From: Thioclava sp. ES.031
Lineage (GTDB): Bacteria > Pseudomonadota > Alphaproteobacteria > Rhodobacterales > Rhodobacteraceae
Reading direction: 5' to 3'
Assembly (NCBI RefSeq): GCF_002563775.1
Contig: NZ_PDJO01000001.1
Location: forward strand, 3,040,501-3,104,500
DNA length: 64,000 bases
Shown here: piece after piece, positions 4,971 through 22,783 of the stretch
How the letters are laid out: each line of letters opens with the position of its first letter
Numbering within the stretch: position 1 is the stretch's first letter
Translations under genes and position numbers: made by a program
Notes under the pieces: model-generated
What the model saw: the letters and a program-made list of their open reading frames with translations, nothing else
Told to the model about the DNA's origin: nothing
Databases searched by the model: none

Positions 4971-5029
4971 AACGCGCAGGGAGGCGAAAAAATAGATACC
5001 GGAAGCTCTGTCTCAACTGGTTGGGACCA

Positions 5030-5043
5030 CCGTTCAAAGGAGA
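5030..5043 (+). repeat. 14-bp direct repeat, copy 2
   Basis: This is an exact second copy of CCGTTCAAAGGAGA (first copy 189-202). Here no start codon follows the AAAGGAG at a usable distance, so a ribosome-binding role does not explain it. It may mark the right boundary of the recombinase element. Confidence 0.5.
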
Positions 5044-5316
5044 GTTTAATATTTTTCTCGGCTGATGGCGCAGTAATGCCCGTGGGGCACACGTAACTTG
5101 ATGAGGCTTAGAGTGCGAAGTAGCGTGGCGCCACGAGAGAAGCCGAATGAAAATATTCGGCTCTTTGTGAAGGTGCTTATTGATGCAGCGGGTAAAGAAA
5201 ATGTAGATGGAGGCGCGTCGGGAAGCCACTGAAGCTTGCGTGTATCGGTGAGACGGTGCACCGGCAAAGGCTTCCTCGGCGCAGCGACGCCTCCGAAGGC
5301 AAGAAAAAGGTTAGAG

Positions 5317-6594
5317 ATGAGCGTTAGTGAAGATGAAATAAAAGAGAAGCTGGCTACCTTCCTAGAAAAAAACAGTTACTCCGAAATACTTACGGGGGAA
5401 GATGGAACGATTTTCATTGCGTCTCCCTGGGGCGACAAAACAATCGGCCTGGTTGTTCCTAAAGAAACCGAGAAGCAAGATAGCCTTTTCGACAGCCTCA
5501 ACGTCTGCACCCTGCCTGAAAAATACTCAGCAATCTATCATAGGGACACAAAGCAGCTAGAAGTCATATGGACTGCATATCGCTTGAACTCGGCAAGCGC
5601 GGAAACTGCCGAACGAGAATTTGAGTTCCTATTTGACGGAAATACGCATAAATGTTGGTTTGGAGGAGCATCGCAACGACTGATGAATATCGCTTCTTGC
5701 GCTGAGCCGGTTTCAAATTCAACTGCAACCAACTACAGGAACTTAATGTCCTTCATAATCCTTCAGCGCCTTGGGGACGATGAAGACAATCATCATGGGG
5801 GACGCGCGTTGAGCACCCCACGGTCTTTCTACATCGAGCTAGGGGAGTTAGACTGGGAAGAAATCGACAGTTTGGTTAGTCATCTAAATGCCTACATGTC
5901 CTATTATGACACAAAGACCCCTCAAGTTCTTATTCACGAACCGATTATAAAAGACTTTGCAGCAAGGGATCGGTATCTTCATGGGGATTTCCCCAGTAAA
6001 ATTTCTGGCCGCGAGATCGACATCAACGCACTGACCTACTGGAGAGAGGCGACGCTCTCAAGCAATGAAATCGTAACCTTCTTGACTTGCTATAGGATCA
6101 TTGAGTATCTCGCATTTCATTTTATTGAAGCTCAAACACGATCTCGTATTAAGAAAGTTTTATCTTCCCCACACGCGCTCTCTAAAATTGACACCACGAT
6201 GCGATCTGTAGTGGAGGCATTGTCCGCTAAGAACGCCACGGAAGACATTCCTAAGGCTCAAAACCTCGTCTCGGAAACGATTGATATGGAGCTCCTCTGG
6301 GCGGAAATTCAACGACACAAAGATTACTTCTGCAAGCCCACTAATTTTGATGGTGGCTACGCCGTGAAAAATCTAATCACTGATAAAGATACCTGTGATA
6401 CATTTTCAAATAATGGGGTCCGGAATACTTTAGATAGATTGCGCGGCATTCGGAATGCCTTGTCACACGGTCAGGATCAACAGACACGTAGCGTGATTCG
6501 GCCGACGGCGCACAATCGGCGCCTCATCAGGCCTTGGCTAAACCTTATTGAAATCATTGCAGGGGAGGCTATGTTGAACAGCGAAGTGGTGTAA
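5317..6594 (+). CDS. Orphan protein with C-terminal HEPN-type motif
   Basis: This 425-residue protein is not recognised over its full length. Near the C-terminus, LRGIRNALSHGQDQQ (about residues 374-388) contains R-N-A-L-S-H, the R-x4-6-H signature of HEPN RNases and HEPN-like ApeA-type proteins, set in helical sequence as expected for that fold. The N-terminal 250 residues are mixed alpha/beta, and no signal peptide or membrane segment is seen. The ATG at 5317 has AAAGG eight bases upstream; the longer frame from 5236 has no ribosome-binding site. Codon third positions are much richer in A/T than in all neighbours, a sign of recent transfer. Lying between a recombinase operon and a restriction-type operon, it may be a defence effector, but no antitoxin partner is visible beside it. 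Confidence 0.8.
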   Translation: MSVSEDEIKEKLATFLEKNSYSEILTGEDGTIFIASPWGDKTIGLVVPKETEKQDSLFDSLNVCTLPEKYSAIYHRDTKQLEVIWTAYRLNSASAETAEREFEFLFDGNTHKCWFGGASQRLMNIASCAEPVSNSTATNYRNLMSFIILQRLGDDEDNHHGGRALSTPRSFYIELGELDWEEIDSLVSHLNAYMSYYDTKTPQVLIHEPIIKDFAARDRYLHGDFPSKISGREIDINALTYWREATLSSNEIVTFLTCYRIIEYLAFHFIEAQTRSRIKKVLSSPHALSKIDTTMRSVVEALSAKNATEDIPKAQNLVSETIDMELLWAEIQRHKDYFCKPTNFDGGYAVKNLITDKDTCDTFSNNGVRNTLDRLRGIRNALSHGQDQQTRSVIRPTAHNRRLIRPWLNLIEIIAGEAMLNSEVV

Positions 6595-7156
6595 GCCACA
6601 TGACTTTAGGAGTAAATCCCATGAGCAACCCAGACTGAGACGCTACATTTAGTGCTGCGGTCGCTGGTCGACGCCACATATAGATGCCGTCATGCTGCAG
6701 AGCATGGCGGCATTGTTGTATGTGATTCGGCTCTCTGTAACTCTCTGAAGCACGTCTCCGACGGTTGCGCGACGTGCGATTGATTTGGCGGCGCCTCCAG
6801 CCCGCCTGCGCGCGGGCTTCCTACAACCCGCGCCGATCGACAGGATATATTACCGTCTGGCCGTCATGCCAGCTCGACGCATACTGACTAGTCCTTGACG
6901 AAGGGAGGCTTTCGGTTGCCGGCGGACCTCCACCTTGCCTGCCACGAACGGCTGTTGAGGGCCCTCAACGGTCATACGATAGCTGCATCATGATGTCTGT
7001 GGCTGTCGGGTTTTCGCACCTCCTGTCGTCATTCGACGGACTTTCGCAGATGCGCTCTCGAACATGACGCCGATACATGTTCGGGGGCGCTCCTGCGAAT
7101 GGCGGAAGATGCCGCATGCTGGCGGGAAATGGCACGTCGAAACTGTGCAATCACTT
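6595..7156. other. Intergenic region with two hairpins
   Basis: No gene is seen. Two stem-loops are visible: ATGCCGTCATGCT / AGCATGGCGGCAT around GCAG (6684-6713), 90 bp after the HEPN gene and a possible terminator without a strong T-run, and AGCCCGC / GCGGGCT at 6799-6818. The rest reads as degenerate non-coding DNA. Confidence 0.5.
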
Positions 7157-7534
7157 TCAGTTTCCAATGATAACCTTCAACGGCAGATCGAGACCAAGGC
7201 GGAGCGCAAGCCAGTCTCGAACGTCAACCGGATTCATTCGCACCGAGCCAAATACATTTCGGGTAGGAAGCCCCTCAGCAAGCCATCGTTCGACTGTCCG
7301 AATGCTAACTTCGAGACCACCCGCCAACTGAACCTTATCGATCAGGGGAAGTTGGTAGCGTTCAAGCGTGCCCCGACCGGGCATGGGCCCTCGCTCGCAG
7401 GACCACACATCCTCCCAGTTTATGCGATAATCACGATTGATTCGATTCGCGCGTAATTCGCCGACGCGGATCTTACGACGCACGGTCGCGGGTGCGAGTC
7501 TGAAGTGCCGGGCAACATTCTCGACGGTAAGCAT
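7157..7534 (-). CDS. Protein with two excisionase-like HTH units
   Basis: This 125-residue DNA-binding protein is built from two HTH_17-like units. Unit 1 is VENVARHFRLAPATVRRKIR with wing YRINWEDVWS (residues 4-48). Unit 2 is KVQLAGGLEVSIRTVERWLA with wing VRMNPVDVRDWLALR (about residues 67-115). The ATG at 7534 has GGGAGGA eight bases upstream, which rules out the longer frame from 7621. A tandem duplication of this fold in so short a protein would let one monomer contact two half-sites. No recombinase is adjacent on the same strand, so its target and partner are unknown. A role as excision factor or repressor for the island is inferred. Confidence 0.75.
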   Translation of the reverse strand: MLTVENVARHFRLAPATVRRKIRVGELRANRINRDYRINWEDVWSCERGPMPGRGTLERYQLPLIDKVQLAGGLEVSIRTVERWLAEGLPTRNVFGSVRMNPVDVRDWLALRLGLDLPLKVIIGN

Positions 7535-7948
7535 ACTGGATCCTCCCAAGTCTTCGCCGTGAGGAGTTAGGGAAGAAGCAGGCCGTCGCAACATCTTCAT
7601 CGAGAAGTTATGGCGGGGCACCGAGATACCAATGCGTCCATATGCGCGCCAGGGAGACCGGCTCGCAGGGAAAGCAGGCGTTGGCCTTCTAAAGTCACCA
7701 GCGGCCTACGCCGCGCAGGGCGGACGGCCACCCGGCATAACCACTTCTATCTGGCCGAAACTGACCAGCAGGGGCAGAGAGTCGCATAAATTATCCCGAA
7801 AGCTTTCTAAGGACCGGGGAATAGCTCGAACAGCGATTTCTCGAAGGTCACTGCAATGCCGGATTGCAAGATATTAGCAGACGTCAGATTGCCACTGATC
7901 GCCTGCTCCGCCAGAAGACTACCGTATTGACCGGAGATTTCTGAAAAA
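7535..7948. other. Intergenic region, no gene seen
   Basis: About 410 bp between divergently oriented genes. It must contain the promoters of the double-HTH gene (leftward) and the MATE-like gene (rightward). No repeat, hairpin or convincing short gene could be supported. Confidence 0.5.
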
Positions 7949-9274
7949 ATGTATTCCCTTAGGCGCATCGACTATCGGCTTTGGTTTGCCATCACACTTG
8001 CGGCCCTTGTGCCAGCTCTCTACTCGACGCTACGTGTCTATTTCCTAAATACGCTCCCCGACGCGTCGAACGTCAGCATTGCCGCGCAAGCTGCGTGGCT
8101 CAATCTTGCTTATGAGGTCTTGCAGGAGGCCCTTCTTCTCCCGCTCTACTACATCTTCGGCCAAGTAATTTTGAACCGAACGGCCCTGCGCGAGAGGGTC
8201 GGCGATGCTTTTCTAGTCACCTTTATTGCCTACGGAATCCTGACGCTTGGGGTCGCGTTCGGAGCGGATTGGTTGACCCGGGCGATGGCGCAGCAGCCAG
8301 AGCTGCAAGCGAGAACTACTGCCTATCTGAGGCTTGAAGCCCTGGGGCGATTGATCGGAACATTAAATGATATCAGCGTCATTGTCGTCGTGGCGCTCTC
8401 CTGGAGGCGCGTTCTTCTCGCATTGGTGGCATTACGCGCGATCCTTACGGTCTTCTTCGACAGCACATTTGTCGGGCAGTTCAGTTTTTCGTTGAACCTC
8501 GGGGTGCAGGGCGTCGCACTGACGAACATCGCTGTGGGCATGCTGCTCCTGATACCGTCTCTCGTGATACTGTCGCGCGCTGGCGCGCTCGGAATACCGC
8601 GTCTGGCTCGCTTCGACGGCTGGAAGAAAGATTGGCTCCGCGTGGCGCTGCGATCAGGCTTGGAATCGAGCGTGAGAAATCTGGCGTTTGCGCTCATGAT
8701 CCTGAGGCTCATGAACAAGGTGAACGAGGCAGGCCTATTCTGGATGACGAACAGCTTCATCTGGGGCTGGCTGCTTTTGCCAGTGCTGTCGCTTGGAACA
8801 CTCATCCGCCAGGATGTCGGCAATCATCGCGGCCATCTCGACGGCCGCCTCAGGGCATATTTTCTCCTGATTGGAATCATAACAGTAGTCTGGTTCGCGA
8901 CCATCCCCGGCTGGCAATGGTTCATCGCGCATGCAATGGGATCAAGCGATGCGTCGCGGATCGTTTCCCTAACCTGCCTGATGCTCGGTTTCTACATCAT
9001 CTTTGCAATCAATCACGTTCTGGACAGCTATTTCTACGGGATGGGCCGCACCGATCTGATGCTCTATCAGTCGCTCTTCGTCAGCGTGGTGTATTACGGC
9101 GCAGCCTTTCTTGCCTACCTTCGCGGCATTTTCGAACCAGATCTGCAAGCCGTTGGGCTTCTTTTCGGCGGCGGTATTCTCATCGACAGTGCTGTCACGC
9201 TCGGGCAGTTCTGGCGCGTTGGCTATTTTGAGCGTTCCCGGCATCCATTCGTGGACGTTCAAACGCTCAATTAA
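7949..9274 (+). CDS. MATE-like multidrug/metabolite efflux transporter
   Basis: A 441-residue polytopic membrane protein with roughly 12 hydrophobic segments from residue 12 to about 430. The organisation resembles the MATE/MOP flippase superfamily: two similar halves, a cytoplasmic basic loop in the middle (RLARFDGWKKDWLRVALRSG, about residues 217-236) and short N- and C-terminal tails. The conserved acidic residues that couple MATE proteins to Na+ or H+ cannot be assigned with certainty. The ATG at 7949 has GGAG about 13 bases upstream, which is rather distant. Transcription may continue toward the helicase gene, but a 144-bp gap separates them and a functional link is not shown. Confidence 0.65.
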   Translation: MYSLRRIDYRLWFAITLAALVPALYSTLRVYFLNTLPDASNVSIAAQAAWLNLAYEVLQEALLLPLYYIFGQVILNRTALRERVGDAFLVTFIAYGILTLGVAFGADWLTRAMAQQPELQARTTAYLRLEALGRLIGTLNDISVIVVVALSWRRVLLALVALRAILTVFFDSTFVGQFSFSLNLGVQGVALTNIAVGMLLLIPSLVILSRAGALGIPRLARFDGWKKDWLRVALRSGLESSVRNLAFALMILRLMNKVNEAGLFWMTNSFIWGWLLLPVLSLGTLIRQDVGNHRGHLDGRLRAYFLLIGIITVVWFATIPGWQWFIAHAMGSSDASRIVSLTCLMLGFYIIFAINHVLDSYFYGMGRTDLMLYQSLFVSVVYYGAAFLAYLRGIFEPDLQAVGLLFGGGILIDSAVTLGQFWRVGYFERSRHPFVDVQTLN

Positions 9275-9418
9275 ACAAATCCAATGATCGCGCACGGCAT
9301 GCTCGCGAATTGAGGAACGTGGCGGCTTCCTTGAAGCGTGCCCCTTACACATAGTGCGTTGACCTGCGGCATTCTTGTGTGCCCCTATCTCAGACAAGTT
9401 ACCAAGGAGCATCGAGAT

Positions 9419-12283
9419 TTGACGACCGAGCTTTCTGAATACCAAGCTAAATTTTTCGCTAACTATCTAACATCCGAAGGCATTTTCGAAAATGACACCT
9501 TGGCGCAGTCTCTTTCGGCCGCAAAGGTTGACTTGAACCCTCATCAAGTTGATGCGGCATCGTTCGCGCTCCGATCGCCGCTTTCTAAGGGCGTGCTTCT
9601 TGCCGATGAGGTTGGCCTCGGCAAGACCATCGAGGCCGCGTTGGTGATCAGCCAGCGCTGGTGGGAAAGGGAGCGGAAGATCCTGTTGGTTGTTCCTGCC
9701 GCACTACGCAAGCAATGGGCTGCGGAACTGCATGAGAAGTTCTCCCTGCCTTCGGTGATACTCGACACCAAGCGGATCAGGGATCTCGAAAAGGCAGGCA
9801 ACCCCAATCCTCTTGGGCGCGATGAAGGCATTATCATCATGTCCTACGAGTTCGCGGCGCGGGTGTCGGATACTTTGCGCCACATCGCGTGGAACCTGGT
9901 GGTATTCGACGAAGCTCATAAGCTGCGCAACGTCTACAAGGCCGCGGAAAATTCCCGGGCGTCAGTGCTGCGAAGGGCCTTGGCGGGGCGCCAGAAACTC
10001 CTCCTGACCGCGACCCCATTGCAGAACAATCTGATGGAGCTTTTCGGCCTCATCAGCCTCATCGACGAGACCTATTTCGGCTCCGAACAAGCCTTTCGCT
10101 CCGAGTTCGGTGGGCGCGAGGGTGGCGCGTCTCAGGCCCTCCTAGCGAAGCGGCTGGAACCGATCTGTAAGCGCACCTTGCGCCGCCAGGTTCAGCGGGC
10201 CGGCCTGATCAACTACACAAACCGCTTGCCCAAGACCTTCGACTTCACGCCGGATCAACTTGAATCCGACCTCTACGACAAGGTCTCGGCCTACCTCCAG
10301 GACCCAAACACCATCGCACTGGGGCAGAATGGTCGGCACCTCGTCACGCTGATGCTGCGCAAAATTCTGGGGTCGTCGTCCTTTGCCGTGACTCAGACCC
10401 TCGACAAAATGATCCGTCGCCTGGAGGCCAAACGCGTTGTGGGAGACGACACCCTCGATGACCTCGACGGATTTAGCGAACATGCCGACGAGTGGCGCGA
10501 GGCCGGTGCAGGGGCCGAGGCAGACGCCGTCGAAGATGATAGCGATGAGGATGCCGAGCGCGTCGATCCCGTGAAGTTGGAACGCGAGATCAAAAAACTT
10601 ACCGAGTATCGGGATCTCGCCCGTTCCATTTCGGACAACGCCAAGGGCAAGGCGCTCCTCGACTGCCTTCCGACAGTGTTGGATGAGATCACCAACAAAG
10701 GCGGCCAGCGCAAGGCGGTGATATTCACCGAGTCGGTGCGCACACAGACTTACCTGCGCGAGATCCTCGAGCAGAACGGCTTCGAAGGACAGACCGTCGT
10801 CCTGAACGGCTCCAACTCCGACAAGGACAGCAAGGCGCTCTACAAAGCTTGGCTCGAGAAACACCGCGGGACCGATGTAGTCTCGGGCTCAAAGACTGCC
10901 GATATGAAGGCCGCGATCGTCGAGGCCTTTCGCAATGACCGCAAGATTCTGATCGCCACCGAGTCCGGCGCTGAAGGCATCAACCTTCAGTTCTGCTCGC
11001 TCCTAATCAACTACGACCTGCCCTGGAATCCACAGCGGGTCGAGCAGCGCATAGGCCGCTGCCACCGCTACGGGCAGAAAATCGACGTCACCGTCATCAA
11101 CTTCCTGAACCGCAAGAACCATGCCGAGGCACGCATTCACCAGCTGCTCGAACAGAAGTTCAAGCTGTTCGAAGGCGTCTTCGGCTCCTCTGACGAGGTC
11201 CTGGGCGTGATCGAATCCGGCGTCGACATCGAACGCCGCATCCTCGACATCGTGCAATCCTGCCGGTCTACCGACGAGATCGACCAAGCCTTCGACCGGC
11301 TCCAGGAAGAATTCAGCGCCGAGATCGACGAGGCCAAGCGCAACGCCCGTGATAAACTTCTGGCCGAGATGGACGACAAGGTCATCGAGCGCCTGCTGGG
11401 CCGCAAGGAGGCGGTGAATTCGGCCATCGGCGACTTCAAGCGCGCGCTCCTTGGCCTTGCCCGCGCCGAACTGCCCGAGGCGCGCTTCCATGACGATCAC
11501 GCGCAGCGCTTCGACTATGACGGGATGACCTGGTCAACCGAATGGCCCGAGGCGGACGAGCGCGGTTGGCGCTTCTTCCGGCTGGGGGATGAGGGGCTCG
11601 CGGATCGACTTGTTGCGCAGGCTCGCAATCGCGAGCTGCCCCCGGCGGCGCTACGTTTCGACTATGGCGCCTATGACGGCAACATGGGCGATGTGGAACG
11701 GCTGCGCGGGCAGTCGGGCTGGATGCGCGTCGCGCGGCTGGTGCTGAACACGCCCGCACGGGTCTATGACGAACTGGTCTATGCGGCCTTTACCGAGGAC
11801 GGCACACCGCTCCATCCAGACACTGCCGAGCGGCTTTTGCATGTGCCGGCGCAGGTGACCGATGCGCACGTCTCCGATCTACCGGAGGAAGAACTGCAAC
11901 GGGTGCAGGATGCGAGGCAAACCGAGATTGTAGGGCAGGCCCAAACGATGCTGGCGACTTTTCTCAACGAGGAGGAGGATCGGCTGGACGCATGGCGAGA
12001 GGATGCCAAGGTGTCCTTCGACCAGCAGATCAAGGCGCTGACCAAGGAGGCCAACGAGAAGAAGAAGCTGGCGCGGGCCACCCTGGGTCTGGAGGAGAAG
12101 CTGGAACTGCAACGTGAAGCCAAGGCGATCCAGCGGCAGGTTGATGACCTCCAGCACCAGCTATACACCCGGTTGCGAGAGATCGATGAGGAACGGGAAC
12201 GGATGCTCGACGAGATTGCCGAGCAATTGAACCTGACCCCCGAGATGACACCCCTATTCACGATACGATGGAGCCTCGCGTAA
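9419..12283 (+). CDS. SNF2/RapA-family helicase of restriction-type operon
   Basis: A 954-residue superfamily 2 translocase. Walker A DEVGLGKT lies at about residues 63-70, the DEAH box in VVFDEAHKL near 163, the helicase C-terminal domain with SGAEGINLQF, and motif VI in NPQRVEQRIGRCHRYGQK near 540-555. An acidic insertion sits around 360-400 and a long charged coiled coil near 840-940. I take the TTG at 9419 as start: AAGGAG ends nine bases upstream, and the following TTELSEYQAKFF looks like the family's N-terminus. An ATG exists at 9338 but gives an unlikely Cys-rich leader. The TAA overlaps the ATG of the methyltransferase (TAATG), so translation is coupled. It probably moves along DNA in the same complex or pathway as the two downstream proteins. 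Confidence 0.9.
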   Translation: MTTELSEYQAKFFANYLTSEGIFENDTLAQSLSAAKVDLNPHQVDAASFALRSPLSKGVLLADEVGLGKTIEAALVISQRWWERERKILLVVPAALRKQWAAELHEKFSLPSVILDTKRIRDLEKAGNPNPLGRDEGIIIMSYEFAARVSDTLRHIAWNLVVFDEAHKLRNVYKAAENSRASVLRRALAGRQKLLLTATPLQNNLMELFGLISLIDETYFGSEQAFRSEFGGREGGASQALLAKRLEPICKRTLRRQVQRAGLINYTNRLPKTFDFTPDQLESDLYDKVSAYLQDPNTIALGQNGRHLVTLMLRKILGSSSFAVTQTLDKMIRRLEAKRVVGDDTLDDLDGFSEHADEWREAGAGAEADAVEDDSDEDAERVDPVKLEREIKKLTEYRDLARSISDNAKGKALLDCLPTVLDEITNKGGQRKAVIFTESVRTQTYLREILEQNGFEGQTVVLNGSNSDKDSKALYKAWLEKHRGTDVVSGSKTADMKAAIVEAFRNDRKILIATESGAEGINLQFCSLLINYDLPWNPQRVEQRIGRCHRYGQKIDVTVINFLNRKNHAEARIHQLLEQKFKLFEGVFGSSDEVLGVIESGVDIERRILDIVQSCRSTDEIDQAFDRLQEEFSAEIDEAKRNARDKLLAEMDDKVIERLLGRKEAVNSAIGDFKRALLGLARAELPEARFHDDHAQRFDYDGMTWSTEWPEADERGWRFFRLGDEGLADRLVAQARNRELPPAALRFDYGAYDGNMGDVERLRGQSGWMRVARLVLNTPARVYDELVYAAFTEDGTPLHPDTAERLLHVPAQVTDAHVSDLPEEELQRVQDARQTEIVGQAQTMLATFLNEEEDRLDAWREDAKVSFDQQIKALTKEANEKKKLARATLGLEEKLELQREAKAIQRQVDDLQHQLYTRLREIDEERERMLDEIAEQLNLTPEMTPLFTIRWSLA

Positions 12284-13971
12284 TGGCGCCCAAGAAAAAC
12301 AAGCTGGAACTCACCTGGATCGGCAAGGACAACCGCCCGCGGCTGGAGCCGCGCATCCTGATCGAAGAGCTGGAATTCTCGCATCACGCCAGCACGCGTC
12401 GCGAAGGCGACATCTTCGACAACATGCTGATCCATGGCGACAACCTGCTGGCGCTGAAGGCGCTGGAAACCGACCCGGCTGTGCGTGGAAAGGTAAAGTG
12501 CGTCTTCATCGACCCGCCCTACAACACCGGATCGGCGTTTGAGCATTATGACGATGGGTTGGAGCATTCGCTCTGGCTATCTATGATCCGAGATCGCTTG
12601 GAACTTCTGAAAAACCTGCTTTCAGAAGACGGATCTATTTGGATTACTATCGACGACAATGAGGCCCACTACTTAAAGGTGCTTTGCGACGAGGTATTTG
12701 GGAGAAAGTGCTTTGTCGCCGATGCAATCTGGAGAACTTCAGATAACAGCAACAACAACGCCACCAAATTCTCTCAAGATCACAATAATGTATTGGTCTA
12801 TGGGAAGAATGCCGAATGGCGTCCGAACTTCCTGAACGATCCAAGCAAAAGAAAACACTTCAAAAACCCAGACAACGATCCGAGAGGACCTTGGTTCGAC
12901 GGAAACCCTGTAAATAACCCTGCATTACGCCCAAATCTTCAATTCGACATAACCGCTCCTAATGGTCACGTGATTAAGCACCCACCCAATGGATGGCGTT
13001 GGTCATTGGATACCATCAAAGAGAAGATGAAAACGGGGGAAATCCGATTTTCAGAGGATGGTAAGCGCCTAATTCGTAGAACCTACCTCAACGACATGGA
13101 CAAAGGCCTTCCACCGTCAACTCTATGGGTAAACTTAGACGAAACCGGTCACAACCGGCAGGCCAAATACGAGCTGAAAACGCTATTTCCGGACGTCCCA
13201 GTAACTTCGTTGTTTGGCACCCCGAAACCCGAGCGCCTGATAGAGAAGGTTTTGAAACTGGCAACGGGTCCTGGGGATCTCGTGCTCGACTCGTTCGCAG
13301 GTTCCGGCACAACAGGCGCCGTAGCGCACAAGATGGGCCGCCGCTGGATCATGGTGGAGCTGGGGGAACACGCCAAGACACACGTCGTGCCACGGATGAA
13401 AAAGGTCATCGAAGGCACCGACAAGGGCGGCGTGTCCGAGGCAACCAACTGGAAGGGTGGCGGTGGCTACCGCTTCTTCCGCCTCGCCCCCTCGCTTTTG
13501 CAAAAGGATGTCTGGGGCAACTGGATCATCTCCAAGGACTACAATGCCGAGATGCTGGCCGAGGCCATGTGCAAGCATTTCAACTATGTTTACGCCCCAT
13601 CGGACGAGGCATATTGGATGCACGGCCAGGCCTCGGAGAACGCCTTCATCTATGTCACCACGGCCAGCCTGACCTTCGACCAGCTCCGCGCCATCTCGGA
13701 CGAGGTAGGCGAGGGTCGCAGCCTGCTGATCTGTTGCATGGCCTACGAGGCACAAGGCGAAAGCCTGGACAACCTGACGCTCAAGAAGATCCCCCGTGTC
13801 GTGCTCGACCGCTGCGAGTGGGGCAAGGACGACTACTCACTTCGTATCGACGCGCTGCCGATGGCCGAAGAGGTGGAGGAGATCATGGAGGAGGACGCCA
13901 GCGCGCCCGCCCCGGCGAAGACCAAGGCCAAAACGGCTGCGACGCCTGACCTGTTCCGGGAAGAGGAGTGA
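12283..13971 (+). CDS. Beta-class adenine-specific DNA methyltransferase (Mod-like)
   Basis: A 562-residue N6-adenine methyltransferase of the type III Mod kind. Catalytic motif IV DPPYNTG is at about residue 77 and the SAM-binding motif I DSFAGSGTTG near 337-346. IV before I is the beta-class order. The segment between them (about 95-320) holds the target-recognition domain and is visibly richer in A/T than both flanks. The start at 12283 overlaps the helicase stop and has GGAG ten bases upstream; the in-frame ATG at 12268 is inside the helicase gene without a better signal. The C-terminal 200 residues may bind the Res partner. It would protect host DNA at the sites recognised by the complex. 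The recognition sequence cannot be read from the gene. Confidence 0.92.
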   Translation: MAPKKNKLELTWIGKDNRPRLEPRILIEELEFSHHASTRREGDIFDNMLIHGDNLLALKALETDPAVRGKVKCVFIDPPYNTGSAFEHYDDGLEHSLWLSMIRDRLELLKNLLSEDGSIWITIDDNEAHYLKVLCDEVFGRKCFVADAIWRTSDNSNNNATKFSQDHNNVLVYGKNAEWRPNFLNDPSKRKHFKNPDNDPRGPWFDGNPVNNPALRPNLQFDITAPNGHVIKHPPNGWRWSLDTIKEKMKTGEIRFSEDGKRLIRRTYLNDMDKGLPPSTLWVNLDETGHNRQAKYELKTLFPDVPVTSLFGTPKPERLIEKVLKLATGPGDLVLDSFAGSGTTGAVAHKMGRRWIMVELGEHAKTHVVPRMKKVIEGTDKGGVSEATNWKGGGGYRFFRLAPSLLQKDVWGNWIISKDYNAEMLAEAMCKHFNYVYAPSDEAYWMHGQASENAFIYVTTASLTFDQLRAISDEVGEGRSLLICCMAYEAQGESLDNLTLKKIPRVVLDRCEWGKDDYSLRIDALPMAEEVEEIMEEDASAPAPAKTKAKTAATPDLFREEE

Positions 13972-13976
13972 GTTCC

Positions 13977-16817
13977 ATGGATACCGTCGACCCCAAACGC
14001 GCCGTTCACCAGATCAACCAGCGCCTATCCCTGCGCAAACCGCAGGCAGAGGCCCTGCGCCGCCTCGACACCATCGTGACCGACATCGACCCGAAGAAAG
14101 ACACTGATGTCGAGCTCGCCCGCGACGCGGTGCGCGCGACCTATGGCAATTTGGCCGATGCGGATTTCGGGGATTTCGAGCGCGGCTTCCCCAGTGTCTG
14201 CTTTGCCCTGGCGACCGGCGTCGGCAAGACCCGCCTGATGGGCGCATTCATCAGCTACCTCTACATGATCGGGAAAAGCCGGAACTTCTTTGTCCTGGCG
14301 CCGAACCTGACGATCTACGAGAAGCTTCTGGCCGATTTCCAGCCGTCGAGCCCGAAATACGTGTTCCGCGGCATCGAGGCCTTTGCCCACAACGCGCCCT
14401 TGATCGTCAACGCCGAGAACTACGAGGAAGGCCGCGGTGTGCGCGGGACCGACCTGTTCGGCAAGGAAGGCGCGATCATCAACGTCTTCAACGTCTCGAA
14501 GATCAACTCCGAAGCGCGCGGCGGCAAGTCACCGCGAATTAAACGGCTTCAGGAGTATATCGGGGAAAGCTACTTCTCCTACCTCTCCGAACTGGATGAC
14601 CTGGTCCTGCTGATGGACGAGGCACACCGCTATCGCGGCACCGCCGGCGCGCGGGCGATCGAGGAGCTGAAACCGATCCTGGGGCTGGAAGTCACCGCGA
14701 CGCCGAAATCCGTGGGCGCGAAATCGCAGGAGTTCCAGAACGTCGTCTATCGCTACGATCTGCCCGACGCGATGGAAGACGGCTACGTCAAGGAACCCGC
14801 CGTCGGCACCCGCGCGAATTTCGATCCGAAATCGGTCAGTCCCGACACTCTCGAGAAGATCAAGCTGGAGGATGGCGTCCATTATCATGAACACGTCAAG
14901 GTAGCCCTGGAAACTTATGCCCGCCAGAACGACGTGAAGGTTGTGCGCCCATTTATGCTGGTGGTCACTCAGGACACGACGCATGCCGGTCAGGTGAAGG
15001 ACTATGTCGAATCCAACGACTTCTTTGGCGGCCGATACAAGGGTCGGGTCGCCGAGATCCATTCCAAGCTGAAAGGTGAAGAAAGCGACGAGAACGCGCA
15101 GCGCCTGCTGAACATCGAGAAGTCCGGCGACACGGATATCGTCATCCATGTCAACAAGCTCAAAGAAGGCTGGGACGTCTCGAACCTTTTCACCATCGTC
15201 CCGCTGCGCGCCTCGGCCTCGGACATCCTGACCGAGCAGACATTGGGGCGCGGCCTGCGTCTACCCTACGGAAAGCGGACGGGTGTCGAGGTCGTCGACA
15301 CCCTTACCGTCATCGCTCATGAGCGTTTCAATGAGTTGATTGAAAAAGCGAAGGAAGAAAACGGTGTTACCCGAAAGCTGAAGCAGGTCACTATCGGCGA
15401 AGGCGGCGACGTGGCGCCGACGAAGCCAGTTTCGGTCGCCGCACCGTCTCTCGTCGATCAGATGCTATCGCAGGCCGAGGCAAAGACAAAGCCAACCGTG
15501 ACGGTCACCGAGGGCGAAAGTGACGAGAGCTGGGTGCAGCCTGCCCCTCAAGCGGGCGGCTTGGCAGAGGCTCCCAAGCCCTTCACCTTCAACACCCCTG
15601 AAGAAGTGAAGGTTGCGCGCACAGTTCTCGACCAAGTGCTCCCGCAGGTCAGCAAGCAAGTGCGTTCCATAAAGGATCTGAACGACCCCAAGATCGTCGA
15701 ACAGATCGCGGACACTGCGATGAAGGTTGCCGCTCAGGATCCCGACCTGTTTTCCAGCGTCACCAAGGAACAAGCCGTGGCGGTCACCACCGAGCTCTGC
15801 AAAAACTTTGTCGAGCGCACACTCGCCATCCCCGCGCTCACGATCACCCCGCAGCAACAGGTGTCCTTCGGCTTCCGCCGCTTCGATCTCGACATGAAAG
15901 CCTGGAACTTTCAGCCCTTGTCACGCGAACTCTTCGTGCAGGTGCTGCGGACCGAGAAGACCTCGATCATTTCGGGCGAGGAAGAAGGCGAAACCGCCAG
16001 CCGGCTTGAGGACTACATCGTCGCGCGTCTGATTGACTATCCTGAAATCGACTATGATGCCCATGCTGAGATTCTCTATGACCTTGCCGGTCAAGCGGTT
16101 GCCCAAACCCGTGCGCGCTTCCCAGGCGACGAAGATCAGTCCCTCAGCGTCGTGCGTGGCCACGCGAAGACCATGTCCGAGAGTATTTTCTCGCAGATGA
16201 AACAGAACATGTGGCGGGAACAGACGAACTATCGCGTCTCCCTTTCGTCAGCCTTCGGCGAGTTGCGCCCGCAGACCTTCGACACTGCGGGGGCCGGTTT
16301 CATCCGGGATTTTCGCACGCCGCCTGATCAGAAGCAGGACATTCGCAAATACGTGTTCACGGGTTTCGCGCGCGGCTGCTACCAGTATGCCAAGTTCGAC
16401 TCCGATCCGGAACGCAAGCTCGCGGTGGTTCTCGAAAAAGAGCCAGGTGTCCGGCTCTGGATGAAACCAGGCCCCAATCAATTCAAAATCTTCGATGCTA
16501 ACGGCGCACCTTATCAACCTGACTTCGTCGTCGAAACAAACACCGAGAAATTGATCATTGAAGTCAAGCGCCTATCCGAAATGACGGCGCCTGAGGTTCT
16601 ACGTAAGGCAGACGCGGCCAGCCTATGGTGTCATATTGCGACCAAAGCCTGCACGGCACAAGGCGAGAAACCTTGGAGCTATCTTCTGGTGCCTGAAACC
16701 GATGTGCAGGAGAACTTCACGATCTCTGGGCTCATCGCGAAGCACACGCGCATCCCTGACGCAGATCTACTTGCCCGGTATCATTTTGAGGACCTTGCTC
16801 CAGCCACAACTGAATAA
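13977..16817 (+). CDS. Type III-like restriction subunit Res (DEAD/DEAH helicase-nuclease)
   Basis: A 946-residue SF2 helicase fused to a nuclease. Walker A is ATGVGKTR near residues 78-86, Walker B DEAHRY near 214, and motif VI EQTLGRGLRLPYG about 420. The C-terminal nuclease of the PD-(D/E)xK type reads PDFVVETNTEKLIIEVKR (about residues 847-864), as in type III Res. The ATG at 13977 has AGGAG eight bases upstream and follows the methyltransferase stop by 5 bp; an in-frame GTG at 13968 is less likely. With the upstream Mod-like enzyme it makes a type III restriction-modification pair. The extra SNF2 helicase makes the set three-component. A terminator hairpin follows at 16839. Confidence 0.92.
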   Translation: MDTVDPKRAVHQINQRLSLRKPQAEALRRLDTIVTDIDPKKDTDVELARDAVRATYGNLADADFGDFERGFPSVCFALATGVGKTRLMGAFISYLYMIGKSRNFFVLAPNLTIYEKLLADFQPSSPKYVFRGIEAFAHNAPLIVNAENYEEGRGVRGTDLFGKEGAIINVFNVSKINSEARGGKSPRIKRLQEYIGESYFSYLSELDDLVLLMDEAHRYRGTAGARAIEELKPILGLEVTATPKSVGAKSQEFQNVVYRYDLPDAMEDGYVKEPAVGTRANFDPKSVSPDTLEKIKLEDGVHYHEHVKVALETYARQNDVKVVRPFMLVVTQDTTHAGQVKDYVESNDFFGGRYKGRVAEIHSKLKGEESDENAQRLLNIEKSGDTDIVIHVNKLKEGWDVSNLFTIVPLRASASDILTEQTLGRGLRLPYGKRTGVEVVDTLTVIAHERFNELIEKAKEENGVTRKLKQVTIGEGGDVAPTKPVSVAAPSLVDQMLSQAEAKTKPTVTVTEGESDESWVQPAPQAGGLAEAPKPFTFNTPEEVKVARTVLDQVLPQVSKQVRSIKDLNDPKIVEQIADTAMKVAAQDPDLFSSVTKEQAVAVTTELCKNFVERTLAIPALTITPQQQVSFGFRRFDLDMKAWNFQPLSRELFVQVLRTEKTSIISGEEEGETASRLEDYIVARLIDYPEIDYDAHAEILYDLAGQAVAQTRARFPGDEDQSLSVVRGHAKTMSESIFSQMKQNMWREQTNYRVSLSSAFGELRPQTFDTAGAGFIRDFRTPPDQKQDIRKYVFTGFARGCYQYAKFDSDPERKLAVVLEKEPGVRLWMKPGPNQFKIFDANGAPYQPDFVVETNTEKLIIEVKRLSEMTAPEVLRKADAASLWCHIATKACTAQGEKPWSYLLVPETDVQENFTISGLIAKHTRIPDADLLARYHFEDLAPATTE

Positions 16818-16838
16818 ACCAGAACGCGGAACGAGTAG

Positions 16839-16863
16839 GGCCTCGGGTGAGAGGCCTTCTTCG
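16839..16863 (+). terminator. Rho-independent terminator of the restriction operon
   Basis: GGCCTC (16839-16844) pairs with GAGGCC (16851-16856) around a six-base loop, followed by TTCTTC. It lies 22 bp after the Res stop codon and before the IS nest. Confidence 0.7.
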
Positions 16864-16992
16864 CGCCACCTTTCTGTTTAACGGTTTTTTTTCACACATG
16901 CGGCTCTGTTGCACAAATCCCGTGAAGGGATGAGCTACTCCCCGTCTCTTGGACAGTAACCATCCGGCGTGGACCGCACATGGGAGCAATTC

Positions 16993-17595
16993 TCAGGTCG
17001 TGCCCTTGGGGGCTTTGGGTTTGCGAGCCCGCGGGGCCCATTTCTTGGCAAGCCGGTTGAAGCGTTCAAGGATGCTGTCGATCCCGGCATCTTCGGCGTC
17101 GAAGTCCCCACCGGACCAGTGGAGCATGTCCTCGTGTTGCTCGTGATCGGGATCGGCGAGGGCTTCGAGGAACTCCTCGTAGCCCCAGGCACCGCCGACG
17201 TCCTCGGGTGGACAGGCACCGGTCGCCTTGAGAAGCCGTGGGTAGATCATGCCGGGGATGGCCTCGTAGACCCGCTCGATACGGATGCTGTGGTCCCAGT
17301 CATCGCCGAAGTCATAGATATACTGGATCGTCCTGGCGCCGGTGTCCTCGAGCACCTTTTCCAACGTCGTCTTCTTCGCGTCCATGGGGCCGTCGTAGAA
17401 CCCGTCCGGGTCGGGCACGCCCCAACCGGCATCACCGGCGCGGAACTCGTAGAGGTGGGTATCTGTCCAGCCCATGGCAGCCTGTATGACCGCATGCAGC
17501 CGGTCGAGCCTGATCTTCAGCGGCACCTCGATATGGCGCATCGGCTGCGGGTCGACGTCGTTCAGGATGATCCGGAGGCGGGCGATCAGGGTCAT
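16993..17595 (-). CDS. Plasmid pRiA4b ORF-3 family passenger protein of IS66
   Basis: A 200-residue soluble protein of the pRiA4b ORF-3/IS1096 TnpR-like family: the early segment MRHIEVPLKIRLDRLHAVIQ, then MGWTDTHLYEFR, the conserved YIYDFGDDWDHSI (about residues 92-104), and the acidic DVGGAWGYEEFLEAL, ending in a lysine/arginine-rich tail. Its ATG overlaps the tnpC stop by 4 bp, so it is made from the IS transcript. The family is common as cargo of IS66 and related elements, but its biochemical role is not established to my knowledge; it is dispensable in most IS66 members. Confidence 0.85.
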   Translation of the reverse strand: MTLIARLRIILNDVDPQPMRHIEVPLKIRLDRLHAVIQAAMGWTDTHLYEFRAGDAGWGVPDPDGFYDGPMDAKKTTLEKVLEDTGARTIQYIYDFGDDWDHSIRIERVYEAIPGMIYPRLLKATGACPPEDVGGAWGYEEFLEALADPDHEQHEDMLHWSGGDFDAEDAGIDSILERFNRLAKKWAPRARKPKAPKGTT

Positions 17596-19217
17596 GCGGC
17601 TATCCTTTGCTCAGCCCGGGCCCAGTTCCAGGGCAACAGATCCGGCACCCGGGAGGCGGTCGTGCCAGGCAACCGGACGAGGACATCGGCGAGCCAGGCC
17701 TGAGGGTCGACATCGTTCATCTTGGCGGTAACGATCAGGGAATACATGAAGGCGGCGCGGTCCCCGCCGCGCTCGGAGCCAGCGAAGAGCCAGGACTTGC
17801 GGCCAAGGGCGATGCCGCGCAGCGCCCGCTCCGCGGCATTGTTCGTCAGGCAGATCCTGCCGTCCTCGAGGAACCCGGTAAAGGCTGGCCAGCGCTCCGC
17901 CTTGAACATGTAGTCGATCGCCTTGGCGACCGGGTTGTGCTTCGACAGCCGGTCGCGCTCGGCACGCAGCCAGTCATGAAGCTCCTCGACCAGAGGCCGG
18001 GACAGCTGGTGCCTGGCCGCCTGCCGTTTTGCAGCCGTCAGCCCGTTGATTCCGCGCTCGATGTCGAAGATCGCGTCGATACGGGCCACGGCCTCCAGCG
18101 CGACGGGGGAGATATCATGGGCCGGCTTGCCCTTCCGGGCGTTCCCCTTGATGTCGGCGAGCTCGAAGAACTTGCGCCGGGCGTGGCTCCAGCATAGCGC
18201 AGACTCGACCGGCCCCGGGTCACGGTCGGCGCGGTAGAGGTCGTTGTAGCCCCCATAGGCATCGGCTTGCAGGATACCCTGCCATCCGGCGAGATGCCGG
18301 TTCGGGTTGGTCATTCCTCGGTCGCGGGAGAACTGGAACAGCGCGGCAGGTGGAGCCCCGCCGCCGAAGGGTCGGTCATCCCTGACATAGGTCCAGAGCC
18401 GGGCGGTTTTTGTCCCGCCCTTCGCCAACAGCGGCACTGTCGTATCGTCGCCATGCAAGCGGTCGCCATCCAGAACATGGGCACCGATCAACGCATGGAT
18501 CGGCTCCAGCGCGGCGGCGCAGGCGCCAACCTGGTCGGCGAGGGTCGACAGGCTGAGATCGACGCCTTCCCGGGCATAGCGTTCGGCCTGGCGATTGAGC
18601 GGCTGATGCTGTCCAAACTTCTCAAAGAGGATCGTCGCCAGCAGGTTCGGGCCAGCCCATCCGCGCGGCGTGGCGTGGAAGGGCGCCGGCGGTTGGCTGA
18701 TCTTCTCGCAGGTCCGGCAGGTGAACTTCTCGCGGACGGTCTGGATCACCTTCCACTGCCGCGGGATCACCTCCAACGTCTCGGTGACGTCTTCCCCCAT
18801 CTTCACGATGCGATCCGAGCCGCAGCAGGAACAGGCCGTGGGCGCCGCGATCACCACGCGCTCGCGCGGCAGATGCTCCGGGAAAGGCTTGCGCGCCGGG
18901 CGGCGACGTTTGAGCCCCGCGACGATCGTGGTCTTCGCCAGCTTCTCGGCGGCAATCTCGTCTTCGGTGGCCGCGGCTTCGAGTTCCTCGAGCTGCAATT
19001 CCATCTGGTCGATCAGTCGGGCGCGGCGTTCCGAGCTGTGGCCGTATTGCTCGCGTCGGAGCTTGGCGATCTCGAGCCGGAGATGCTTGATCATCGCCTC
19101 GGAGGTCGAGACCACCGCCCGGGTCTGCGCCAGCTCGCTCTCGGCGGCCTCGGCACGGGCCTCGGAGGCCGCGAGCGCGGCGCGCAATCTGGCAATCTCG
19201 GAAGCGTTGTTCGACAT
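17592..19217 (-). CDS. tnpC: IS66 family transposase
   Basis: The catalytic subunit of IS66 elements, 541 residues. The N-terminus is a leucine-zipper-like coiled coil (about 5-60), followed by the basic segment AGLKRRRPARKPFPEHLPR and a zinc-binding region with CSCCGSDR and CRTCEK. The DDE core includes LDGDRLHGDDTTVPLL, LQADAYGGYNDLY and the late Glu in CLTNNAAERALRGIALGRK. The ATG at 19217 is preferred; an in-frame TTG lies two codons earlier. All expected family parts are intact, so the element may still be active. The 3' end overlaps the passenger gene. Confidence 0.93.
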   Translation of the reverse strand: MSNNASEIARLRAALAASEARAEAAESELAQTRAVVSTSEAMIKHLRLEIAKLRREQYGHSSERRARLIDQMELQLEELEAAATEDEIAAEKLAKTTIVAGLKRRRPARKPFPEHLPRERVVIAAPTACSCCGSDRIVKMGEDVTETLEVIPRQWKVIQTVREKFTCRTCEKISQPPAPFHATPRGWAGPNLLATILFEKFGQHQPLNRQAERYAREGVDLSLSTLADQVGACAAALEPIHALIGAHVLDGDRLHGDDTTVPLLAKGGTKTARLWTYVRDDRPFGGGAPPAALFQFSRDRGMTNPNRHLAGWQGILQADAYGGYNDLYRADRDPGPVESALCWSHARRKFFELADIKGNARKGKPAHDISPVALEAVARIDAIFDIERGINGLTAAKRQAARHQLSRPLVEELHDWLRAERDRLSKHNPVAKAIDYMFKAERWPAFTGFLEDGRICLTNNAAERALRGIALGRKSWLFAGSERGGDRAAFMYSLIVTAKMNDVDPQAWLADVLVRLPGTTASRVPDLLPWNWARAEQRIAA

Positions 19218-19277
19218 GGCCAAGACCTACCATGCCGGCATCGGAAAGCCCATGCAAATAAGGTCGATGAGGCCAAT

Positions 19278-19628
19278 TTATCCCGCCTTTGCAGGGCGTT
19301 GGGTCCAGCGTGGATTGCGCCAGTCGATCCCCTCCAGAAGATAACCGAGCTGGGCCGCGGAGATCTGCACCGCCTCGCCGCTTCCACTGGTCGGCCAGAT
19401 GAACTTCCCCGCCTCCAGCCGCTTCGTATAGAGCGACATGCCCACCCCGTCGTGCCAGAGAAGCTTGACCAGCTCGCCCTTGCGCCCGCGAAAGCAGAAG
19501 ATCTCGCCGGCATGGGGATCGCGCCCCAGACCCTGCTGCACCGTCAACGCCAAGGTGTTCATACCGCGCCGCATGTCAGTCACTCCGCCCGCGATCCAGA
19601 CGCGCACCCCCGCCGGGAACGCGATCAT
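19278..19628 (-). CDS. tnpB: IS66 accessory protein TnpB (IS66 Orf2)
   Basis: This is the 116-residue IS66 Orf2-like protein needed for transposition of IS66 elements. Diagnostic segments are VWIAGGVTDMRRGMNTLA near the N-terminus, GEIFCFRGRKGELVKLLWHD in the middle, and RLEAGKFIWP toward the end. Its start overlaps the tnpA stop by 4 bp. Length and motifs are complete. Its molecular action in transposition is not well defined in the family. Confidence 0.92.
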   Translation of the reverse strand: MIAFPAGVRVWIAGGVTDMRRGMNTLALTVQQGLGRDPHAGEIFCFRGRKGELVKLLWHDGVGMSLYTKRLEAGKFIWPTSGSGEAVQISAAQLGYLLEGIDWRNPRWTQRPAKAG

Positions 19629-20050
19629 GACGGATCCAGGGCTTGCACGAGGCGCGCCAGCACCATCGGGTCAATCGTGGCCGCCACAGACAGGCGACGG
19701 CCATTCGCGAGGGTAATATCTGCCATCAGGACCTCGGCTGTCTCTGGCGTCGGAACCGGTGCAAACGGTCCGCCTTGATCCTCCGCTTCTTCAGGAGCGG
19801 CGATGGCCAACGGTGTGAACTGCGGTCGTGCATCGCCGCTCGTCAGCCTGCCTTCGCGGTATTGGCGACGCCAGCGCACCAGCAGGGTGCGGCCAATATC
19901 ATGACGCCGGGCTGTCTCGGCGACACGCCCTCTACCGCCAAAGCTTTCTTCAACGATGCGCACCTTCTCTTCATCCGTCCAACGCCGACGGCGCCCGGTA
20001 TCGGTGACAGAAAGGATCTCAATTTCGGGTCTGTATCTATGGTCGGACAT
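19625..20050 (-). CDS. tnpA: IS66 accessory protein TnpA (HTH)
   Basis: A 141-residue first gene of the IS66 operon. RRRWTDEEKVRIVEES and the following AETARRHDIGRTLLVRWRRQ make an HTH_Tnp_1-type DNA-binding domain (about residues 20-62); the rest is a linker and an alpha/beta tail containing ITLANGRRLSVAATID. Its start is about 40 bp inside the right terminal repeat, leaving room for a promoter in the IS end. It probably binds the IS termini. Confidence 0.92.
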   Translation of the reverse strand: MSDHRYRPEIEILSVTDTGRRRRWTDEEKVRIVEESFGGRGRVAETARRHDIGRTLLVRWRRQYREGRLTSGDARPQFTPLAIAAPEEAEDQGGPFAPVPTPETAEVLMADITLANGRRLSVAATIDPMVLARLVQALDPS

Positions 20051-20131
20051 AGCTCCGGACCTACGCCGCCAGCCTCAAGTCCGAAAGACGGTCCTCCCCG
20101 GAGCCTTACCTTGGACAGGATCTGGCGTAAT

Positions 20132-21285
20132 TTAAGCTACTCTTTGCACCTGCTGATCGGGTTGGTTGATATCATGTCTCTGCCAATAGACCAGCGCCGG
20201 TGGCTTGCCGCCGAGGGCTGAGTGAGGGCGCTGGTGGTTGTAGAAGGTCATCCATTTCCGGATCGCCGCCTTTGTCTCCGATCCTGTCTCCCAGGCATGC
20301 AGGTAGACGCATTCGTATTTCAGGGTTCGCCACAGCCGCTCGATGAAGATGTTGTCGAGGAATCGGCCTTTCCCATCCATCGAGATGCGCACGCCCGACC
20401 GGCGGAGCCGATCCGTCCAAGCGAAGGACGTGAACTGAGAACCCTGATCCGTATTCATTATCTCGGGCGGGCCGAACTTGTGGATGGCTTCGTTCAGCGC
20501 CTCGACACAGAAGTCGGCCTCCAGGGTGTTCGAGATCCGCCAAGACAGAACCTTGCGGGTGTGCCAGTCCATGATCGCCACGAGGTAGAGGAACCCGCGC
20601 CGCATGGGCAGGTAGGTGATATCCGAGCACCAGACCTGGTTCGGGCGATCCACCCGCAGACCTCGCAGCAGGTAGGGATAGGTCTTGTGCCCCTTCGCCG
20701 GCCTGCTTGTGTTGGGTTTCTGGTAAATCGGCATGAGCCCCATCAGGCGCATCAGTCGCCGTATCCGCTTCTCGTTCACCAGGTGGCCGTCGTTACGCAG
20801 GTGCCAGGTCATCTGGCGGACACCGAAGAACGGGGTCTCCAGGAACTGCTCGTCGATCTGCCGCATCAGGCCGAGGTTCTGTTCGGTTTCGCCCTTCGGC
20901 TCGTAGTAATAGGATGAGCGTGCGATCGACAGCAGCTTGCACTGCTGCCCAATCGACAGATCCGAATGGTTCGGCTCGATCATGCCACGCCTCACTTCCC
21001 GCCCCAAGGCTTCAGCTTTCGTTCCAAAAAAGAGTTGGCCACCGCCAGCTCCCCGATCTTGGCGTGGAGCTCCTTCACCTGCTCCTCGTCGATCTCGGGC
21101 TTCCTTCGGCCCCCGCGCTCGAACACGCCCGACGCGCCTTCGAGCAAGGCCCGCTTCCATTGATGGATCATCGTCGGATGCACCCCGAACCGGCTCGCCA
21201 GTTCGGCCGCTGTCTCTTCACCCTTCAGGGCTTCCAGCGCGACCTTTGCCTTGAACTCGGGCGCGTGCTGCTTGCGTTTCGACAT
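20132..21285 (-). CDS. IS3 family transposase OrfAB (programmed -1 frameshift)
   Basis: The fused transposase would begin in orfA and shift -1 at a run of six A on the plus strand (21026-21031; T6 in the mRNA sense) into the orfB frame. orfB holds the rve integrase core: Asp in VWCSDITYLPMRRG, Asp in IMNTDQGSQFTS, and Glu in NIFIERLWRTLKYE. The C-terminus is the usual NHQRPHSALGGKPPALVYW. After the shift the reading frame is open to 20132. An independent orfB start at 20983 (MIEPNHSDLS) is also possible. All catalytic residues are present, so the only damage to this element is the IS66 insertion near its terminus. Confidence 0.88.
20992..21285 (-). CDS. IS3 family OrfA (HTH/leucine zipper)
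   Basis: A 97-residue OrfA with the IS3 helix-turn-helix (EFKAKVALEALKGEETAAEL, then SRFGVHPTMIHQWKRALLEG) and a zipper-like C-terminal helix (EEQVKELHAKIGELAVANSF). Made alone it normally inhibits transposition; as OrfAB it guides the transposase to the ends. It stops 34 bases beyond the slippery T6 run, as expected for programmed frameshifting. Confidence 0.88.
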   Translation of the reverse strand: MSKRKQHAPEFKAKVALEALKGEETAAELASRFGVHPTMIHQWKRALLEGASGVFERGGRRKPEIDEEQVKELHAKIGELAVANSFLERKLKPWGGK

Positions 21286-21403
21286 CTCTGATCTCCTTCT
21301 CGTCGAAGATCAGCAGACTGCAAATCGTAGCTTATGTCAGTGTCCGAATTTCAGGGGGTAGCTCAGGATTCATGTTGTGAATCCAGCGTGGTAGCTGGCT
21401 GTC

Positions 21404-22336: not shown

Positions 22337-22390
22337 GTCCGTCCGGGGAAAGGGGAACCTCGGCCATCAACCGATTTGTGCAACAGAGCC

Positions 22391-22566: not shown

Positions 22567-22783
22567 AAAAATCTCCACGGCAAGGCGCAAAAGGACAGCA
22601 AGCCAGCCCTTCGGGGTTAATCAAGTTTTCAAATCACTCTGGGAGTTTTCTTGCCGCTTGCCAACTGGAACTTCTCCGAAATGCCGACGAGACATCATCC
22701 GCTCCGCAGTCTTAGCCTTCTGACCTGCCACGGGATTTCTCCTCCACCGTCGATTAGAGTCCGACCCAACTTGAGGACGGACA

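Follow-up and report, generated by a model that had tools for sequence, protein, structure and literature searches.

Although type III restriction is textbook defence, hundreds of its loci include a further motor gene beside those for the methyltransferase and the nuclease. What might this third gene contribute? The question is raised here by an operon of Thioclava sp. ES.031, which lies in a stretch of 64,000 nucleotides from contig NZ_PDJO01000001.1 (positions 3,040,501 to 3,104,500) that was analysed as a whole; this stretch is called the window below, and coordinates are counted from its first base. At 9419-16817 of the window, genes for a SNF2/RapA-like ATPase (hereafter the helicase), a Mod DNA methyltransferase and a Res nuclease form a tight, same-strand operon. 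We put at roughly three in four the probability that this trio is a type III restriction-modification (R-M) system and that its SNF2 ATPase helps with restriction in the cell.

The three genes and their products

Mod and Res carry the features of a type III pair. Mod matches MTase_III in PADLOC (2.6e-203) and N6_N4_Mtase in Pfam (1.4e-45), and its matches in the Protein Data Bank (PDB) include 6k0w, deposited as Mod (7.7e-49), and the Mod of EcoP15I, 4zcf (1.3e-38). DPPY, a variable recognition region and FxGxG follow one another in the type III order, as in EcoP15I, and IDPP and SF-GSG are invariant across 37 Mod sequences. Res combines an SF2 motor with a C-terminal PD-(D/E)XK nuclease, again as in EcoP15I. 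Its family matches are REase_III (PADLOC, 3.1e-229), ResIII (Pfam, 4.8e-20) and, slightly below the curated cut-off, RE_endonuc (Pfam, 7.9e-5); its top Foldseek match is EcoP15I Res (4zcf_C, E 6.1e-16), which places both EcoP15I subunits among the PDB matches. The residues G-GKT, DE-H, PD and E-K are invariant across 35 Res sequences. Unlike the window operon, EcoP15I and classical type III systems have no SNF2 gene; such systems typically comprise two proteins, Mod and Res, according to Murray et al. 2021 (PMC8259958).

The third protein matches the DrmD-type SNF2 model of PADLOC (7.6e-191) and SNF2-rel_dom of Pfam (5.4e-35). A RapA-like fold spans its residues 5-954, and its alignment to RapA begins only at about RapA residue 121-123; no nuclease family is found among its Pfam matches. 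With its motifs invariant in 40 helicase sequences, the ATPase active site looks used, and so do those of Mod and Res. An earlier note, made from the letters of the window alone, had described a type III-like Mod/Res pair after a coupled (TAATG) RapA/SNF2-type ATPase, with catalytic motifs intact in all three genes. Family matches and the overlap of the open reading frames (ORFs) bear out the first statement, and the invariance of the motif residues across aligned relatives bears out the second.

The spacing of the genes is tight, as had also been noted. The helicase stop overlaps the Mod start in TAATG (a second in-frame ATG for Mod lies at 12268), and the ORF list holds no gene between the three. 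At the Mod/Res junction, the ATG at 13977, which has GAAGAGGAG ahead of it, leaves a gap of 5 nt, and an alternative GTG start at 13968 gives a GTGA overlap and a Res of 949 residues. The single terminator of the earlier description is weak: the terminator scan lists nothing after 16817, and the candidate found by eye is a 6-bp GC stem with a poor T tail. The promoter scan, which began at 9200, turned up no promoter-like site ahead of 9419.

The closest systems lie on a Paracoccus plasmid (L005) and a Ketogulonicigenium plasmid (L100), with helicases 83-84% and Res proteins 81% identical to those of the window. The identity of Mod to these two varies along the protein: counted from the ATG at 12268, it is 72-97% in residues 1-120 and 321-520, 40-65% in residues 121-160 and 55-57% at the C-terminus, and in residues 161-320 it is 35-50% to L100 and 10-32% to L005. 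At the DNA level, the similarity of window positions 5000-18000 to L100 begins at 9429, has one gap (Table 1) and ends at 16771, inside Res; the pattern against L005 resembles it. In the stretches compared, therefore, only the trio is shared and the flanks are not, and the gap corresponds to the recognition region. Mean conservation across 37 Mod sequences is 0.30-0.44 in residues 156-315 (counted from the ATG at 12283), the lowest apart from the C-terminal tail. These comparisons indicate that recognition sits in Mod, in a region that appears exchanged relative to the closest systems.

Recurrence of the trio and its Mod/Res lineages

A helicase-profile scan of genome contigs, taking the best 80 of 560 relatives by closeness, gave 79 counted loci. 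The contig reaches at least 9 kb beyond the helicase in 48 of these, and Mod and Res lie downstream on the same strand in 40; one locus has Mod only, and seven have neither downstream. In two of the seven, from Lonepinella (L064) and Schaalia (L069), Mod and Res sit directly upstream of the helicase, which brings the trio set to 42 of 48 loci and indicates that the set survives a change of gene order. Neither partner is found in the other five (L041, L080 with a helicase of 510 residues, L082, L088 and L094); the L088 helicase adjoins a metallophosphatase and SbcC-like pair, and that of L094 an SMC-like gene and a transposase. The 31 loci with less than 9 kb, for which only the downstream side was counted, hold Mod and Res in 7, Mod only in 8 and neither in 16. 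These counts leave out L001-L004, L017 and L097-L099 (own genome, weak matches and loci fetched for Res), and they take in cut or split copies, for example of Mod (L011), of Res (L029, L089) or of the helicase (L086, L090), and of Res in L051, an 88-residue piece at the contig end. The earlier note had named rare adjacency of the helicase to such pairs as what would speak against its reading; the neighbourhood survey found the trio conserved instead. In the two permuted loci (L064:2409-12880, of lineage C in the grouping given below and with an Abi_2 gene between Mod and Res; L069:5127-12853, of lineage B), the Res and helicase genes abut.

Other samples agree. On plasmids, the trio is present in 13 of the 14 helicase loci fetched (14 of 50 records), the exception being a gene fusion on L101 that is described in the last section. 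Among 5426 E. coli genomes, 248 have a DNA match to the helicase of a Salmonella plasmid, and all four loci fetched from these hold the trio. An even sample of 398 Pseudomonadota genomes contains 21 helicase matches in 20 genomes, the window's own included; partners lie near by in 16 of the 16 copies with enough contig, and the remaining matches end at contig ends (four) or are a fragment of 229 residues (one). Eleven of the 16, own copy included, have a Res of lineage A near by on the same contig and strand (Mod was looked for in the window only, and the Res genes of G394 and G335 have one in-frame TGA each); the other five have Mod and Res of lineages B or C, with the helicase and Mod of G341 each split over two ORFs. 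Conversely, a lineage A Res occurs in 22 of the 398 genomes, and a helicase accompanies it in 11 of the 13 cases in which a helicase was found or at least 8 kb lies upstream; the nine further ones are fragments or close to the end of a contig. A Res of this lineage thus usually, though not necessarily, has the helicase as its partner. The trio is no chance neighbourhood. The two of the 13 cases without a helicase, L106 (genome G218) and L107 (genome G137), hold lineage A Mod and Res with no SNF2 gene near by, and a gene with a Bro-N domain precedes Mod in L107.

Mod and Res of the 65 trios sort into three lineages, in which the two proteins are paired: A with 37 members, including the window, C with 20, including Eco86II, and B with 8. 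The pairing is perfect (65 of 65), partly by construction, since the lineage models were seeded with pre-grouped pairs. On a helicase tree built by a quick method from 63 of the 65 helicases (two below 850 residues were left out), the lineage label changes 7 times, against a minimum of 2 and a mean of 23.1 after shuffling, and none of 200 shuffles reached so low a value. The association between helicase and Mod/Res appears to be mainly inherited, with several replacements. The clearest apparent replacement of the Mod/Res module after the helicase gene involves Marinobacterium L052 (lineage B) and Marinobacter L093 (lineage C): their helicases are 83% identical and DNA similarity covers the helicase gene only, whereas the Mods share 26% over 378 residues and the Res proteins give no significant match (E 0.084). 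As judged from these sequences, the helicase is not tied to one Mod/Res lineage.

The gene order of the window, ATPase-mod-res, is also that of Eco86II from E. coli NCTC86 and BspHIV from Acinetobacter sp. H; for Eco86II the likeness rests on the fetched NCTC86 locus, and for BspHIV on the published gene order. Murray et al. 2021 report a helicase-like ATPase gene 5' of mod in both systems and in more than 500 genomes (PMC8259958). The three-gene architecture is therefore known, which removes the earlier suggestion of a less-described defence system, and the window copy adds a member of lineage A. A match to a characterised system was the second thing that the earlier note had named against its reading, and it largely applies. 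The Eco86II helicase (L102:11984-14875) is homologous to the window's over its full length, at 39% identity in 983 columns; its Mod (1040 residues) shares 27% over 397 residues with the window Mod, and its Res (1126 residues) is matched over only 66 residues (E 0.011). PMC8259958 calls Mod and Res of the three-gene group diverse and does not use lineage as a criterion. According to the same paper, Eco86II makes N4-methylcytosine (m4C) in GAGCC, Mod alone methylated and the ATPase was dispensable for methylation, and DNA was cut in vitro by a partially purified preparation in which Mod and Res, but no ATPase peptides, were found; the role of the ATPase is left open there.

Candidate roles for the SNF2 ATPase

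How would such a system work? Mod, via its exchangeable recognition region, would bind and methylate an asymmetric site in host DNA, and Res would cut DNA with unmethylated sites by means of its own motor and its PD-(D/E)XK nuclease, after site communication as in EcoP15I. The SNF2 protein would be an active ATPase, neutral to sequence specificity, that helps restriction in the cell rather than its chemistry. We infer this accessory role, as well as the anti-phage function of the window copy and the site-communication step. The leading candidate for its particular task, held tentatively and at odds below even, would be the remodelling or stripping of DNA-bound proteins, whether RNA polymerase or proteins of the phage or the nucleoid, which would open the way for Mod-Res to its sites or let it slide. 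Work on protein-covered DNA would be the simplest role because the active site is kept, the protein seems neutral to specificity and survives replacement of Mod/Res, the fold is RapA-like, and the facts reported for Eco86II fit.

In the main rival reading, the SNF2 protein would be the hub or sensor that stays constant in a modular defence platform, coupled to Mod/Res and to cargo effectors that fire when restriction fails or is blocked, with the window as a cargo-free form. We regard it as a serious contender and nonetheless unlikely. A related proposal, more doubtful still, would see SNF2, and not Mod/Res, as the conserved core: one RapA-like motor family combined with three Mod/Res lineages and interchangeable cargos, with a licensing or sensing function and the window as its minimal form. 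What speaks for the hub, besides the seven changes of Mod/Res module beneath the helicase where two would be the minimum, is the content of the trios. Same-strand extra ORFs of at least 100 residues lie inside 38 of 65 trios, and in 36 of these 38 at least one sits between helicase and Mod; many belong to defence families. Among 69 extra ORFs, the Pfam families are AIPR (8), DUF4276 (4), Abi_2 (4), GmrSD (3) and SIR2 (2), with a kinase and others singly, and the PADLOC families include mad3 (10), HEC-01A (5) and AbiD (4). The count follows a mechanical ORF rule, by which short ORFs may be spurious and a DUF262 gene in L009 was missed; the 69 include a transposase from L008 and four ORFs added by hand (L009, L106, L107, L111), that of L106 being a tRNA synthetase. 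Against the hub stand the 27 of 65 trios, the window among them, without any such ORF, and the Abi_2 gene of L064, which separates Mod from Res and does not adjoin the helicase. Accessory genes are moreover known from other R-M and HMA loci, so that insertion need not mean coupling to the helicase: GHKL ATPases and AIPR genes are described as accessories of R-M operons in PMC2292703, and PMC12988326, with reference to Payne et al. 2024, uses the term 'guilt-by-embedding' and mentions candidates that are Hma-embedded. The notion that defence genes sit embedded within defence loci is well established.

A change of cleavage rules, such as one-site cutting, would follow if the SNF2 protein were an integral motor of the restriction complex, as the earlier note had suggested. 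The TAATG coupling and the invariant ATPase motifs are compatible with this, and CglI offers a parallel with its separate helicase-like subunit and its R2H2 complexes that communicate along DNA (PMC5737866). In the one system tested, however, the idea finds no support: Eco86II Mod methylated without the ATPase, and no ATPase peptides were detected in the Eco86II preparation that cut DNA (PMC8259958). Res has a motor of its own, the distance between the helicase and Mod genes exceeds 500 nt in 35 of 65 trios, and the helicase is the last gene in two further loci. We consider this reading improbable, and less likely than the hub. DISARM class 1 has DrmD beside an adenine methylase, and a system akin to DISARM or related to BREX, with a DrmD-type helicase and a methylase that act without Res cleavage, is the least probable of the alternatives by far. 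The best PADLOC and NCBIfam matches of the helicase are indeed DrmD models, and a SNF2 helicase of the same broad family stands beside a methylase gene. The helicase nevertheless misses the NCBI DrmD cut-offs (635.4 against 950 and 283.2 against 610, NCBIfam), the eight flanking ORFs have no PADLOC family at 1e-5 and thus none of the DISARM partners, which we take to be drmA, drmB and drmC, and a Res with intact motifs adjoins Mod. A DISARM identity was rejected on these grounds; the likeness to the SNF2 protein of DISARM that had been proposed holds at the level of the helicase family, and not at that of the cut-offs or of partners in the scanned flanks.

The HMA/BREX-related systems share the combination of SNF2 helicase and methylase, and some of their loci encode further nucleases; PMC12839542 describes a DUF499 ATPase, a DUF1156 methylase and a SNF2 helicase with an N-terminal TUDOR domain. 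The window helicase differs in aligning to RapA only from the point given above, and no DUF499-type gene lies between the three ORFs of the window or in the flanking ORFs scanned. Iyer et al. 2008 (PMC2292703) describe MORC-containing R-M operons in which helicases of the SNF2 or type III kind occur with accessory ATPases and AIPR genes; SNF2 operons and type III operons are listed separately there, and the window operon has no accessory gene. The three window proteins match no MADS model in NCBIfam at 1e-3 (a set that holds at least MAD1 and MAD3). If the SNF2 protein did license restriction or cargo, it would link type III R-M to the SNF2-based DISARM and BREX-related systems. Handles on the third gene are at hand in similar helicases before unrelated Mod/Res pairs, in trios with and without cargo, in the two permuted loci and in the SNF2-Res fusion.

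The cargo between helicase and Mod looks interchangeable in L103-L105, L007, L014, L087 and others, where Abi, AIPR, AAA with DUF4276, SIR2 or an IetA/IetS-like pair is found. The last of these, an ATPase-subtilase pair inside the trio of E. coli O104:H4, scores below the NCBI cut-offs. In L103, a gene for a helix-turn-helix (HTH) protein of 66 residues precedes the helicase (L103:13814-14014) and scores as NCBI MAD1 (83.5 bits, cut-off 80), even though L103 holds the present trio; the label is possibly a loose name for a common small HTH protein.

Coordinates, surroundings and a plasmid fusion

Table 1. Features of the operon, in window coordinates.
Feature	Position	Strand	Basis or remark
Ribosome-binding-site-like AAGGAG before helicase start	9404-9409	+	read from sequence
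SNF2/RapA-like ATPase, 954 residues	9419-12283	+	TTG start, TAA stop
Helicase Walker A, GLGKT	9614-9628	+	invariant in 40 helicase sequences
Helicase DEAH	9908-9919	+	invariant in 40 helicase sequences
Helicase motif VI, QRIGR	11045-11059	+	invariant in 40 helicase sequences
Type III Mod DNA methyltransferase, 562 residues	12283-13971	+	ATG start, TGA stop; PADLOC, Pfam and PDB matches
Mod DPPY (residue 77)	12511-12522	+	
Target-recognition region of Mod	12702-13269	+	DNA similarity gap against Ketogulonicigenium plasmid L100
Mod FAGSG (residue 338)	13294-13308	+	
Type III Res, 946 residues	13977-16817	+	ATG start, TAA stop; PADLOC, Pfam, Foldseek
Res Walker A, GVGKT	14217-14231	+	
Res DEAH	14616-14627	+	
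Res nuclease PD	16518-16523	+	
Res nuclease EVK	16560-16568	+	
Possible weak terminator stem-loop (GGCCTC, 6-base loop, GAGGCC)	16839-16856	+	read by eye

The helicase is found in 2 of 16 genomes of the genus, the window's own included, and the G+C content of the operon is 0.53-0.63, against mostly 0.61-0.70 beyond 24 kb. Together with an IS66 neighbour, this patchy presence and lower G+C fit horizontal acquisition. The Pfam matches of the flanking ORFs are MATE-like, HTH, PRiA4_ORF3, IS66 and other transposase families, or nothing. A gene for a MATE-family exporter (7949-9274; NF045539, 534.7 bits, cut-off 350) immediately precedes the operon on its strand, and on the downstream side the operon borders on a PRiA4_ORF3-like gene and clustered transposase genes of IS66, rve-type and DDE families (16993-24618). 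Further upstream, an ORF of 452 residues with a TTG start and a G+C content of 0.48-0.51 (5236-6594) has no Pfam, NCBIfam or PADLOC match, and three ORFs of 238, 580 and 650 residues on the minus strand (958-4767) have none in Pfam or PADLOC. The largest of these weakly resembles the plasmid locus L101 (26% over 175 residues).

This locus, on plasmid p5 of Thioclava sp. GXIMD4216, carries an in-frame SNF2-Res fusion of 1233 residues (L101:7992-11693). About 825 helicase residues (98.7% identical to L100) are joined to about 410 C-terminal residues of Res (93%) with PDFV and EVK kept, and Mod and the Res motor are missing. From its sequence, this single case may be either a relic or a working SNF2-nuclease. 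A total of 5478 bases of L101 are identical in L126, a genome of the window's genus.

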